Position numbers and translations under genes: made by a program
The notes under the pieces: generated by a model
Seen by the model: the letters and a program-made list of their open reading frames with translations, nothing else
Told to the model about the DNA's origin: nothing
Databases searched by the model: none
In this document: positions 3,253-63,016 of the stretch, piece after piece
How the letters are laid out: each line of letters opens with the position of its first letter
Numbering within the stretch: the first letter of the stretch is position 1
NCBI RefSeq assembly: GCF_003289955.1
Contig: NZ_QLZR01000005.1
Location: forward strand, 62,001-126,000
Length of the DNA stretch: 64,000 nt
From: Planococcus halotolerans
Lineage (GTDB): Bacteria > Bacillota > Bacilli > Bacillales_A > Planococcaceae
Reading direction: 5' to 3'

Positions 3253-3296
3253 AAACCAGCCACGAAAAGCTTTTGCTTTTTGTGGCTGGTTTTTGG
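3253..3296 (+). terminator. Terminator after floT
   Basis: An 11-bp stem (3253-3263 with 3282-3292) encloses an inner AAAAGC/GCTTTT hairpin and is followed by a T-rich run. Confidence 0.85.
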
Positions 3297-3472
3297 TTTC
3301 AGGGAACCGCTGAGGGGGAAAAGATAGGCGATATAGTATGAAATTATCATTTATGCTGTATTGTTGCTTCTCTGTCATTTTGTAGATTTAATTAGGGTGG
3401 TAGAACGTGATAATAATATTGTTAAAATGATAAATTCATGGTAAAAGAAAACATTTACTTAAGGAGCACCCT

Positions 3473-4966
3473 ATGAACATACAATTTACAGAAATACCTC
3501 ATCTCACATCCCTTTCCTTAAACGGACCCAAAGTCCAGGAAATAACTTCCATCGTTTATAACTCAGTGGAGACAAAACAAGGATCCGCTTTCTTTTGTGT
3601 GACCGGAGAAAATACAGACGGCCACTTATATATTGAAGAAGCAATCGATAAAGGCGCATGTGCCATAATCGGGACAGACAAAGACATGCTGAATCAGCAT
3701 TTCAACTTGTTTCCTCAAGTGACATTTTTGCAGGTTGAAAATTCAAAGGTTGCCATGGCGCACATTTCCAATTACTTTTACGGCAACTCACAGGATCGGC
3801 TGATTAAGGTCGGCGTTACAGGCACTAATGGTAAAACCACCACAGCCACCTTCGTTTACAGCCTTTTTAATTTATTGGAAATGCCATGCGGATTTTTAGG
3901 CACTACCGGTATATGGTCTTCAACCGGCAAGCTCGCTTACAAGAAAAGCACCCCGACTACACCCATTTCCTCTGATATACATAATATCTTTTCGCAGCTG
4001 TCTGCCCAAGGAGACGTGTCAGCCGCAATGGAAGTTTCATCTATTGCGCTGGATCAGAAAAGGGTGGAAGGGATCATCTTTGATGTGGCAATCCACACGA
4101 ATATTTCAGAGGAACATATGGAATACCATAAAACCTTTACTCATTATCTCCAATCAAAACTGGAATTATTCCGGCAGGCGAAATCGGCTGTCATCAATTT
4201 GGATGATGCCGGCATGTCTCAGGAGATTTTGGAGATTGCTCAGTATCCCTGTCTTACCTATAGTGCGGACCCTGATTCCGGAGCGGATCTGATTTGGGGA
4301 GACTGCCGGACATTGGATGAGGGATTGGCTTTCAATTTAATATATGGAGGTATTGCAAGACGGGTTCAAGTTCCTATATTCGGTGAGTATAATGCCGGAA
4401 ATCTGACTGCAGCGATTGCTGCGGCTTTATTGGCCGGGAAATCCATTGAGGAGATTTTAGCTGTCTTGCCAGAGCTTCCGCAGGTGGAAGGGCGGTTCCA
4501 GGTTCTTGCCGGACCCGAAGGCAGAAAAATTATCCTCGATTACGCCCATACACCGGTAGCCATTGAGCTTGTATTAAATGAAGCGAAAAAGTTACCGCAC
4601 CGACGCCTCATCGCGATGATTGCAGGTATCGGAATCCGCGATTTCTCCAAGATGCCGAAAATGGCAAAAGCTGCGGAAGGCAGAGCGGATACGATCATCG
4701 TTACAGTTGACCATCCGGGCTATAATGACCCCAACGATGTAGTGGATGCAGTGGTTAAGGGCTTTACAGTCCCTTATAAACAGGAAGTATTGACGGCACC
4801 TTTACGCAAGGATGCTGTAATAGAAGCATTAAAGGCAAGCGGACCGGAAGATATCATCCTGTTATCCAGCGGCTGCATCAACGGCGCTCAAATTATCAAG
4901 GGTGAATATATTCCGCATTCGGATGAAGAGATTATTGAGGAATTTTTTATGCAGCAAAGACATTGA
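3473..4966 (+). CDS. Divergent MurE-type Mur ligase paralog
   Basis: The 497-residue protein has the three Mur ligase domains: N-terminal UDP-sugar domain (1-105), central ATPase with P-loop GTNGKTTT (117-124), and C-terminal ligase domain (from about 335). It keeps the TTP substrate motif (162-164), the MEVSS stretch (186-190, but I where MurE usually has H at 191) and the lysine that is carbamylated in MurE (K229). It lacks the amino-acid pocket motifs: DNPR is DHPG (413-416), GDRD is GIRD, and the KGHE segment is GCIN (467-470). MurE adds the third residue to UDP-MurNAc-L-Ala-D-Glu; this paralog may add a different residue or act on another substrate. It stands alone, outside a cell-wall cluster. 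AAGGAG at 3461-3466 fixes the start. Confidence 0.75.
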   Translation: MNIQFTEIPHLTSLSLNGPKVQEITSIVYNSVETKQGSAFFCVTGENTDGHLYIEEAIDKGACAIIGTDKDMLNQHFNLFPQVTFLQVENSKVAMAHISNYFYGNSQDRLIKVGVTGTNGKTTTATFVYSLFNLLEMPCGFLGTTGIWSSTGKLAYKKSTPTTPISSDIHNIFSQLSAQGDVSAAMEVSSIALDQKRVEGIIFDVAIHTNISEEHMEYHKTFTHYLQSKLELFRQAKSAVINLDDAGMSQEILEIAQYPCLTYSADPDSGADLIWGDCRTLDEGLAFNLIYGGIARRVQVPIFGEYNAGNLTAAIAAALLAGKSIEEILAVLPELPQVEGRFQVLAGPEGRKIILDYAHTPVAIELVLNEAKKLPHRRLIAMIAGIGIRDFSKMPKMAKAAEGRADTIIVTVDHPGYNDPNDVVDAVVKGFTVPYKQEVLTAPLRKDAVIEALKASGPEDIILLSSGCINGAQIIKGEYIPHSDEEIIEEFFMQQRH

Positions 4967-54629: not shown

Positions 54630-54657
54630 ACACACATCAATGTAAACGAGGTGACGG

Positions 54658-54687
54658 GTGGACGATGAAATAAATTCCTTTTTCTGA
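54658..54687 (+). CDS. Possible leader peptide before vmlR
   Basis: GTG at 54658 opens a nine-codon frame, MDDEINSFF, after GAGGTG (54648-54653). An overlapping two-codon frame, ATG AAA TAA at 54665, is the alternative. Either could report ribosome stalling to the downstream attenuator. No translation evidence exists in the sequence beyond spacing. Confidence 0.4.
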   Translation: MDDEINSFF

Positions 54688-54719
54688 GCAACTGAAGTTT
54701 TTTCAGCTTGAAAGAAATA

Positions 54720-54812
54720 GGATTCGTCTGCCCAATTTTTAGTTAATCAGCTTTAATGCAGTTTATTTGGGTTGCCGAATTCTTCCGAAAATCAATCGGG
54801 GGAATTTTTTTT
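54720..54812 (+). promoter_or_regulatory. Transcription attenuator of vmlR
   Basis: Two exclusive structures are visible. The terminator is a 10-bp stem (54778-54787 with 54797-54806, two G-T pairs) followed by eight T. The antiterminator pairs GGATTCG (54720-54726) with CGAATTC (54776-54782) and CCCAA (54731-54735) with TTGGG (54767-54771), which sequesters the terminator's left arm. The terminator ends 27 bases before the vmlR start. Attenuation by antibiotic-stalled ribosomes is known for vmlR and related ABC-F genes. Confidence 0.78.
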
Positions 54813-61461: not shown

Positions 61462-62610
61462 ATGGGCAAATATCGTTTTGAAGAAGATGAACATGTCATG
61501 TTCCGTAAGTCGCTGCGGAAATTTCTTGAAAAAGAAGCGGTGCCGCAATATGAACAATGGGAGCAGGACCGCCTGATTCCAAAATCATTCTGGAAGAAAC
61601 TCGGGGACATGGGCTTTTTATGTCCGCAGGTGGATGAGCAATACGGCGGCCTCGGGCTTGATTTTCGTTACGCCGTCATCATCGGGGAAGAAATGGAGCG
61701 CGTTGGCGCCAGTCTCACTGGTGTGGGGCTGCACAACGATATAACAGTGCCGTATATCGAATCCTACGGCAATGAAGAGCAGAAACAGCGCTGGCTGCCG
61801 GGCTGTATTTCCGGTGACTACATCACGGCTATCGCGATGACGGAACCGGGAGCGGGATCTGACCTTGCGAATATCTCCACAACGGCCGTCCGGGACGGAG
61901 ATAATTATGTCGTCAATGGCCAAAAAACGTTCATCACCAATGGCATCAATTCGACGCATGTGGTCGTTGTCGTTAAAACCGATACAAAAGTGGAACCGAA
62001 GCACCGGGGGATATCCTTACTGATGATTGAAGAAGGGATGCCAGGCTTTACAAAAGGGCGCAAACTGGATAAAGTCGGCCTTCATGCGCAGGATACTTCC
62101 GAATTGTATTTTGAGGATTGTGTCGTACCGGTTTCCAATCTGATTGGTGAAGAAAACAAAGGCTTTACATATTTGATGGAAAAACTTCAGCAGGAGCGTC
62201 TGGTGGTGGCGATGGCCGCTCAAACGGCTTCGGAAGATATGCTGGAAATGACGGTCGATTATGTGAAATCGAGACAGGCATTCGGCAAGCCGATCAGCGC
62301 TTTCCAGAATACCCAGTTTAAATTGGTTGAAATGGCGACCGAAGTGGAACTGGGGCATTCATTCCTCGAATCGCTGATCGAAGAGCATATGGCAGGCAAG
62401 GATATCGTTTCCAAAGTGTCGATGGCCAAATATTGGCTGACGGATACCGCGAAAAAAATCTCGGGCGAGTGCATGCAATTGCACGGGGGCTACGGGTACA
62501 TGGAAGAATACAAAATCGCCCGCCGCTACCGCGATATTCCGGTGGCAGCGATATATGCCGGATCCAATGAAATCATGAAAACGATTGTTGCGAAGCGAAT
62601 GGGTCTGTGA
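61462..62610 (+). CDS. Acyl-CoA dehydrogenase
   Basis: The 382-residue flavoenzyme oxidises acyl-CoA to enoyl-CoA. It has AMTEPGAGSDLANIST near residue 130, the C-terminal signature QLHGGYGYMEEYKIARRYRD and the catalytic Glu region AIYAGSNEIMK. It is the third gene of the FadR-controlled operon, 12 bases after the SDR gene, preceded by AGGGGGATGA. Chain-length preference cannot be read from sequence. Confidence 0.92.
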   Translation: MGKYRFEEDEHVMFRKSLRKFLEKEAVPQYEQWEQDRLIPKSFWKKLGDMGFLCPQVDEQYGGLGLDFRYAVIIGEEMERVGASLTGVGLHNDITVPYIESYGNEEQKQRWLPGCISGDYITAIAMTEPGAGSDLANISTTAVRDGDNYVVNGQKTFITNGINSTHVVVVVKTDTKVEPKHRGISLLMIEEGMPGFTKGRKLDKVGLHAQDTSELYFEDCVVPVSNLIGEENKGFTYLMEKLQQERLVVAMAAQTASEDMLEMTVDYVKSRQAFGKPISAFQNTQFKLVEMATEVELGHSFLESLIEEHMAGKDIVSKVSMAKYWLTDTAKKISGECMQLHGGYGYMEEYKIARRYRDIPVAAIYAGSNEIMKTIVAKRMGL

Positions 62611-62649: not shown

Positions 62650-62987
62650 AACTTCAACTTGTTGGTAGAATGGCAAGTCTATTTGAGAGAAGAGCCCAGA
62701 GAAGATGAGAATAGCAGAGAGCAAAATCGAGGATTGAGACGAGTAGGCAGTGGATTCCATAATAGAGAGTCAGCGGCTGGTGGAAGCTGATTGGGGAAAC
62801 TGCGCGAATGGACTTAGGAGAGCTGGCCTGAAAATGGAAATGAGTAAGGCAGACGTATGCCCTGCGTTAAAGGGAAAGGCGAAAAGCCTGTTTGAGTGAG
62901 TGCAGAAATGCATTAATGCGTGGTGGTACCGCGGTTTTTTTAACCCGTCCCCGCAACCGGATATATTTCCGGTTGCGGGGATTTTTG
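62650..62987 (+). promoter_or_regulatory. Tryptophan T-box leader
   Basis: This 340-base leader has the T-box sequence GGTGGTACCGCGG (62922-62934), the stem I marks AGAGAG (62764-62769) and GGTG (62779-62782), and a specifier in the context GAA-TGG-AC, where TGG (62809-62811) is the tryptophan codon. A terminator with 12-bp stem (62949-62960 with 62969-62980) and T-run follows. Uncharged tRNA-Trp should favour antitermination. A weak promoter with TTGACA at 62620-62625 lies upstream. B. subtilis uses TRAP for its trp operon instead. Confidence 0.88.
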
Positions 62988-63016
62988 TATTTCAAAAGAG
63001 CTGAGGAGAGATGAAG

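Follow-up and report, generated by a model that had tools for sequence, protein, structure and literature searches.

A MurE-like ligase subfamily with a switched third-residue pocket and a putative SigB-type promoter in Planococcus halotolerans and related Bacillales

Introduction

MurE sets the third residue of the cell wall peptide, and the usual view is of one such essential enzyme in each genome. As far as the available text of a study of the Staphylococcus aureus enzyme goes (PMC3829189), the Asn and the Arg of the MurE motif DNPR bind the carboxylate of diaminopimelate (DAP), the first Asp of this motif and the Glu of the KGHE motif bind the side-chain amine, and lysine addition is lost in the N407A variant and nearly lost in the E460A and D406A variants. 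The present analysis deals with a MurE-like ligase gene in which both motifs are changed, located in a window of 64,000 nucleotides from Planococcus halotolerans (the whole stretch analysed, positions 62,001 to 126,000 of contig NZ_QLZR01000005.1). A preliminary description had presented it as a single, stand-alone MurE paralog with replaced pocket motifs, whose product should differ from that of MurE, and had named the lack of a second murE in the genome as a refutation. A literature search, with most subscription journals outside its coverage, found no paper describing this paralog.

A MurE Subfamily with One Fixed Pocket Pattern

The gene and its motif positions are located in the window as follows.
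3473 to 4966, forward strand: MurE-like ligase gene, 497 amino acids, ATG start, stop codon counted in, from the open reading frame (ORF) and family matches
3818 to 3838, forward strand: P-loop TGTNGKT, residues 116-122
3941 to 3964, forward strand: K157-P164 loop ending in TPTTP, part of a stretch three residues longer than in other MurE proteins
4157 to 4159, forward strand: K229, the carbamylated-lysine position, Lys in 109/109 subfamily members
4625 to 4642, forward strand: GIGIRD in place of GGDRD, residues 385-390, with R389 kept and the Asp replaced by I388
4706 to 4720, forward strand: VDHPG in place of DDNPR, residues 412-416, with D413 kept, the Asn replaced by H414 and the Arg by G416
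4868 to 4882, forward strand: SGCIN in place of GKGHE, residues 466-470, with the Glu replaced by N470

All three Mur ligase Pfam domains are matched above their cut-offs, and residues 23-491 match the murE model TIGR01085 with 352.8 bits (cut-off 257.3). The predicted structure (predicted local distance difference test, pLDDT, 93.6; predicted template modelling score, pTM, 0.92) finds its best match in S. aureus MurE with bound tripeptide product (4c13; Z 44.2, root-mean-square deviation 2.3 over 479 residues, 28% identity, Foldseek E 2.6e-44), followed by other matches including the cyanophycin synthetase 7wae_A (Z 32.1) and the MurE-like PAP11 chains of plastid RNA polymerase.

For comparison, 196 MurE-like frames (at least 350 amino acids, E <=1e-30 to the query) were collected from loci most of which had been chosen for their similarity to the 3473-4966 protein. 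After 44 frames identical after residue 20 had been dropped, the 152 distinct sequences fell by motif into 109 subfamily members, 24 DNPR, 7 DDPR and 8 DDLN sequences, two distant VDHPG relatives (L073 and L074) and two others. In alignments with the solved MurEs and with the canonical-type MurE of the same genome (L001), DHPG stands opposite DNPR/DDPR, GIRD opposite GDRD/GNRD and GCIN opposite KGHE, as had been read from the DNA at the outset. The replacement of the pocket is nevertheless partial: DNPR has lost its Asn and Arg and KGHE its Glu, whereas DNPR keeps its first Asp (D413) and GDRD its Arg (R389). As for the singularity of this paralog, it is indeed a MurE paralog with an altered pocket, but one belonging to a whole subfamily with a fixed pattern, an insertion of its own and, in many genera, a predicted upstream SigB-type element.

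The catalytic features expected from the DNA are all present (P-loop, TT pair, carbamylated-lysine position), with K121 and K229 invariant in the 109 members together with E187, Q195, R197, R389, M394, D413, H414, P415, G467, I469 and N470; T162, T163 and S31 are kept in 108/109, Ser or Thr occupies position 189 in all, and D356 is invariant in alignment A1. Position 416 is Gly in 103 members and Asp in 6. The stretch from G143 to T162 is three residues longer in 109/109 members, against 0/39 DNPR, DDPR and DDLN sequences, and the SSH motif of MurE reads SS[IVT] throughout (SSI in the P. halotolerans protein). Under a strict rule (95% in the subfamily, 85% in 31 canonical MurEs), 11 columns are switched between the two sets (208, 212, 214, 217, 306, 394, 466, 467, 469, 470 and 488), four of which (466, 467, 469 and 470) lie within the KGHE loop, and 394 lies five residues from R389. 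Besides, the DGH motif of domain 1 is kept, as are the equivalents of E. coli T158, T159, Q191 and R193, which we take from the UniProt P22188 contacts to be the acceptor-side positions. Taken together, the acceptor side and the chemistry look conserved, and the incoming-residue side looks switched in one fixed way.

The two DNPR residues that go with DAP addition, Asn and Arg, are absent, since the motif reads DHPG or DHPD in 109/109; of the Asp and Glu-460 that go with lysine addition in the DNPA-type enzyme, the Asp is kept (D413) and the Glu is N470 in 109/109. The protein matches NF001126, the NCBIfam model for DAP-adding MurE, with 381.7 bits against a curated cut-off of 373, an acceptance that is probably wrong. 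Finally, the ratio of nonsynonymous to synonymous substitution rates (dN/dS) is 0.046-0.078 for the gene against five close orthologs, reflecting purifying selection. Given this ratio and the invariance in 109/109 members, the pocket change is not a matter of chance or decay.

Phylogeny and Distribution

In a tree of 76 of the 152 sequences, calculated by a quick method without bootstrap, the subfamily together with L073, L074 and L088, the last on a very long branch, is split from all canonical and DDLN sequences with a support of 100 in the Shimodaira-Hasegawa-like approximate likelihood ratio test (SH-aLRT). The subfamily alone (33 sampled sequences) forms one side of a branch whose support is only 70, because L088 is unplaced.

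Within the genus, 45/46 genomes (all but G033) have orthologs with 63-97% identity. In a sample of the family, matches at E 1e-70 were found in 38/200 genomes (3/19 genera), and in the order sample in 55/261 (by genera 3/19). The class sample gave matches in 20/398 at 1e-75, one of which (G986) reaches 34% identity only and falls outside the subfamily, and the phylum sample in 8/398, six of them canonical DNPR MurEs at 33-35%. A scan of named genomes with C-terminal alignment gave 168 relatives, of which 80 were kept, so that the following list of genera is incomplete: Terribacillus, Jeotgalibacillus, Domibacillus, Metabacillus, Peribacillus, Paenisporosarcina, Planococcus, Planomicrobium, Rossellomorea, Halobacillus, Sinobaca, Fictibacillus, Pseudalkalibacillus, Priestia and Indiicoccus, along with unplaced Bacillus species. 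No relative was found on viral contigs, and plasmids yielded one of 43.5% identity, from Planococcus lenghuensis, annotated as DAP-adding MurE. At least one relative being so annotated automatically, the subfamily is likely hidden in databases.

Other departures from canonical MurE were met among these sequences. L073 and L074, the distant VDHPG relatives (43-44%), come from the plasmid and chromosome of P. lenghuensis, one of them lying on a 329 kb plasmid; they carry GIGLRS, and LGFGG replaces the KGHE loop. L199 (Metabacillus lacus), with NNPG, GGNYKD and KGHE, stands beside the DDPR group in the tree and represents another changed pocket. L194 (Priestia koreensis) and L195 (Bacillus sp. 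OV322) are second DNPR-type MurE copies with EVTSQGL instead of EVSSHAL.

A Predicted SigB-Type Element Upstream of the Gene

Judging from its upstream region, transcription of the gene probably depends on the general stress sigma factor SigB.
3296 to 3321, forward strand: predicted SigB-type promoter-like site GTTTCA-N14-GGGAAA, -35 at 3296-3301 and -10 at 3316-3321

The last base of this site lies 152 bases upstream of the start codon. According to the available part of PMC9847131, the SigB consensus is GTTTAA-N15(+/-2)-GGGTAT and 14 is a good spacer length; the same text also reports that some sites as weak as GTTTCA-N14-GGGAAA were inactive in tests. With sequences grouped by genus, and with groups from the neighbouring genes of the same loci as controls, a GGGWAW -10 element was found in 15/18 genus groups versus 71/225 control groups (P 2e-5), and its combination with a -35 element (at least 3/4 GTTT matches, at 12-15 nt) in 10/18 versus 25/225 (P 2e-5); with an exact GTTT, the figures are 3/18 versus 10/225 (P 0.06). 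An unbiased scan placed GGGTA, GGGTAA and GGGTAAA on top of the 5-, 6- and 7-mers (P 6e-5, 3.5e-4 and 2.5e-4, uncorrected). A SigB-type element is therewith enriched upstream of the gene across genera with unrelated neighbourhoods, which is new here.

A SigB gene with 416 bits (cut-off 315) is present in the P. halotolerans genome, where the second-best score against the SigB model is only 83.5 bits, and SigB is therefore the likelier reader in Planococcus; in most other carriers a second match of about 160 bits exists, which is taken to be a sporulation sigma factor. SigB is present in 25/25 carriers tested, but since many other Bacillales also have it, its presence does not discriminate.

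Genomic Setting and Coexisting MurE Genes

The stand-alone setting noticed initially is borne out: clustering of the neighbours at 92 loci revealed no partner kept between genera, Planococcus and Indiicoccus (flotillin/fumC side) excepted. The five neighbours scanned in the window are NfeD, flotillin, fumarase, diphthamide synthase and one protein without match. The distant relatives L073, L074 and L088 have no evident partner gene either. A hairpin upstream is consistent with a transcription unit of its own for the MurE-like gene.
3253 to 3292, forward strand: terminator-like hairpin of 18 pairs, between the flotillin gene and the MurE-like gene

An Rfam search detected no T-box or other element adjoining the gene in the window and none belonging to it in 8 homolog loci; the purine riboswitches of L094 sit in a downstream pur-type region. 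Elsewhere in the window, a T-box leader (62721-62955, forward strand, Rfam 104 bits) lies 56 bases upstream of an ORF at 63011 which by eye resembles anthranilate phosphoribosyltransferase, and a match to the Bacillus small RNA ncr1575 lies at 54633-54811 (forward strand).

The P. halotolerans genome holds eight Mur_ligase_M places, namely this gene, the canonical-type MurE L001, the further paralogs L002 and L003 and single MurF, MurD, MurC and FolC genes. A canonical murE thus coexists in the genome itself, so that the initially named refutation did not occur, and a further TIGR01085 match occurs in 20/20 carrier genomes, at full length in 19 and as a 147.7-bit fragment in Bacillus sp. SG-1 (G1008). 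The best canonical copy in the 19 carriers has DNPR in 16 and DDPR in 3; we take DNPR to mark DAP-type and DDPR Lys-type MurE. As it coexists with both, the subfamily gene is not restricted to a single wall chemotype. Strain Y74, whose ortholog (L122) is 97% identical to the P. halotolerans protein, has a wall of the plain L-Lys-D-Glu type according to the available part of PMC7294307. Its bulk third residue is therefore explained without the subfamily enzyme.

The two further paralogs both have TDDLN for DNPR and FRG[DN]RD, and keep GKGHE.
L002, positions 1177-2634 of that locus (C10:242 kb of the same genome): TDDLN paralog
L003, positions 958-2418 of that locus (C13:2.5 kb of the same genome): TDDLN paralog

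They form a clade of their own with six sequences from other Bacillales, and at two Halobacillus loci a TDDLN-type gene lies at most 1.2 kb from a VDHPG-type gene. Concerning other traits, many carriers are pigmented, and CrtM-type PF00494 matches (E <1e-60) were seen in 14/24 carriers versus 6/26 non-carriers; an obligate carotenoid link was rejected, too many carriers being without such a match.

Possible Functions

The explanation we tentatively prefer, while granting it somewhat less than an even chance, is that of a SigB-linked ligase that extends UDP-MurNAc-Ala-Glu by a residue which is neither DAP nor Lys. The protein would be a catalytically competent amide ligase of the MurE type forming a separate subfamily, its acceptor would be UDP-MurNAc-Ala-Glu, its incoming group would differ from DAP and Lys, and it would have a role in stress. 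The retention of R389 and D413 still makes an L-amino acid the likely incoming group, and a pocket with D413, H414 and N470 but lacking the Arg and the Glu would suit a side chain that is small, or one that is neutral and polar. It is a more doubtful proposal, and on balance an improbable one, that under general stress such a dedicated SigB-controlled MurE variant would yield a second UDP-MurNAc-tripeptide with a non-DAP, non-basic third residue, whose stems could not be cross-linked through the third-residue amine, the cell thereby tuning or capping its wall. More generally, a widespread second enzyme with a different, fixed pocket and a stress-type promoter element would imply a conditional wall chemistry that no one has searched for, or else a new product of a wall enzyme.

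Several observations weigh against a SigB-linked, wall-directed ligase. Regarding the promoter, the motif test was run after the motif had been seen, on groups of unequal size and with the longest ORF setting each start; taken alone, the best 6-mer (P 3.5e-4 among 4096) loses significance after correction. The combined -35 and -10 site is absent from Domibacillus (0/7), genus g26 (0/3), and Peribacillus, B. ectoiniformans, cl95 and Indiicoccus (0/1 each), and it is present in only 8/26 Planococcus and 1/5 Rossellomorea. Regarding the wall, no conserved neighbour backs such a role, the RNA elements searched for give no amino acid identity, a possibility thereby rejected, and no second MurF stands above the TIGR01143 cut-off in the 21 genomes tested: one match does so in 20/21, Sinobaca (G1013) has only a sub-threshold match, and the extra matches of G1004, G1010 and G1016 fall below. 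Furthermore, the His of the SSH motif is gone in 109/109, and the mapping of the acceptor contacts through E. coli numbering is a weak point.

Some of these observations would fit an enzyme outside peptidoglycan synthesis, which would reuse MurE-like acceptor residues to join an amino acid or amine to another carboxylate, giving for instance a gamma-glutamyl compound, an osmolyte or a secreted polymer. The gene stands alone with neighbours varying by genus and no adjoining wall gene, the change of SSH and the longer loop before TTP are both found in 109/109, there is no dedicated MurF, and the MurE-like domain of cyanophycin synthetase serves a non-wall polymer, as stated in the accessible part of PMC9427784. 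The conserved DGH motif of domain 1 and the four E. coli-equivalent positions are, however, hard to explain without a UDP-muramyl-type acceptor, and no biosynthetic cluster was seen, so that we hold this explanation to be rather unlikely.

A spare MurE for times of stress, whose remodelled pocket would still accept Lys, Orn or DAP as the usual third residue, would account for the NF001126 score above cut-off and for the kept D413 and R389, and the available text of PMC3829189 describes lysine addition by the S. aureus enzyme despite partial loss of the motif (DNPA). Nevertheless, in 109/109 members Asn replaces the Glu binding the lysine amine and His the loop-holding Asn, changes at positions where E460A and N407A leave the S. 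aureus enzyme nearly or fully dead in that same text. Besides, one fixed pattern runs through genera of both DNPR and DDPR MurE types, unlike a copy of the local MurE, and such a function is judged distinctly improbable. As to a non-catalytic relative with a structural or sensing role, on the model of the MurE-like plant PAP11 in plastid RNA polymerase, the PAP11 chains do appear among the structural matches. The P-loop Lys, the carbamylated-Lys position, E187 and R389 are yet kept in 109/109 and D356 throughout alignment A1, the lost positions being those of the third-residue pocket, which makes this role very improbable.

Comparison with Known Systems

In the MurT/GatD amidase pair, the gene of the GatD glutamine amidotransferase lies beside murT; no GatD was found among the five scanned neighbours. 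The MurE-like domain of cyanophycin synthetase has the middle and C-terminal Mur ligase domains in common with the P. halotolerans protein, from which its ATP-grasp domain is missing and in which MurE domain 1 is intact according to Pfam. The TDDLN-type paralogs L002 and L003 are likewise extra MurE-like genes beside a canonical MurE in Bacillales with a changed DNPR, but they belong to a separate clade (SH-aLRT 100), with GKGHE in 7/8, G[DN]RD in 7/8, FRG before RD and no insertion. The DAP-adding MurE (E. coli 1e8c; NF001126) has the same domain order, and its model accepts the protein, whereas its DNPR Asn and Arg and its KGHE Glu are absent from all 109 subfamily members. Finally, S. aureus MurE (4c12/4c13) shares the three-domain fold, the P-loop, the TT pair, the carbamylated-lysine position, the acceptor-side residues and R389; at 28% identity, it differs in that its DNPA is here DHPG, its KGRE-type Glu is Asn and its SSH is SSI, and the subfamily has in addition a three-residue insertion before TTP and, in many genera, a predicted SigB-type promoter element.
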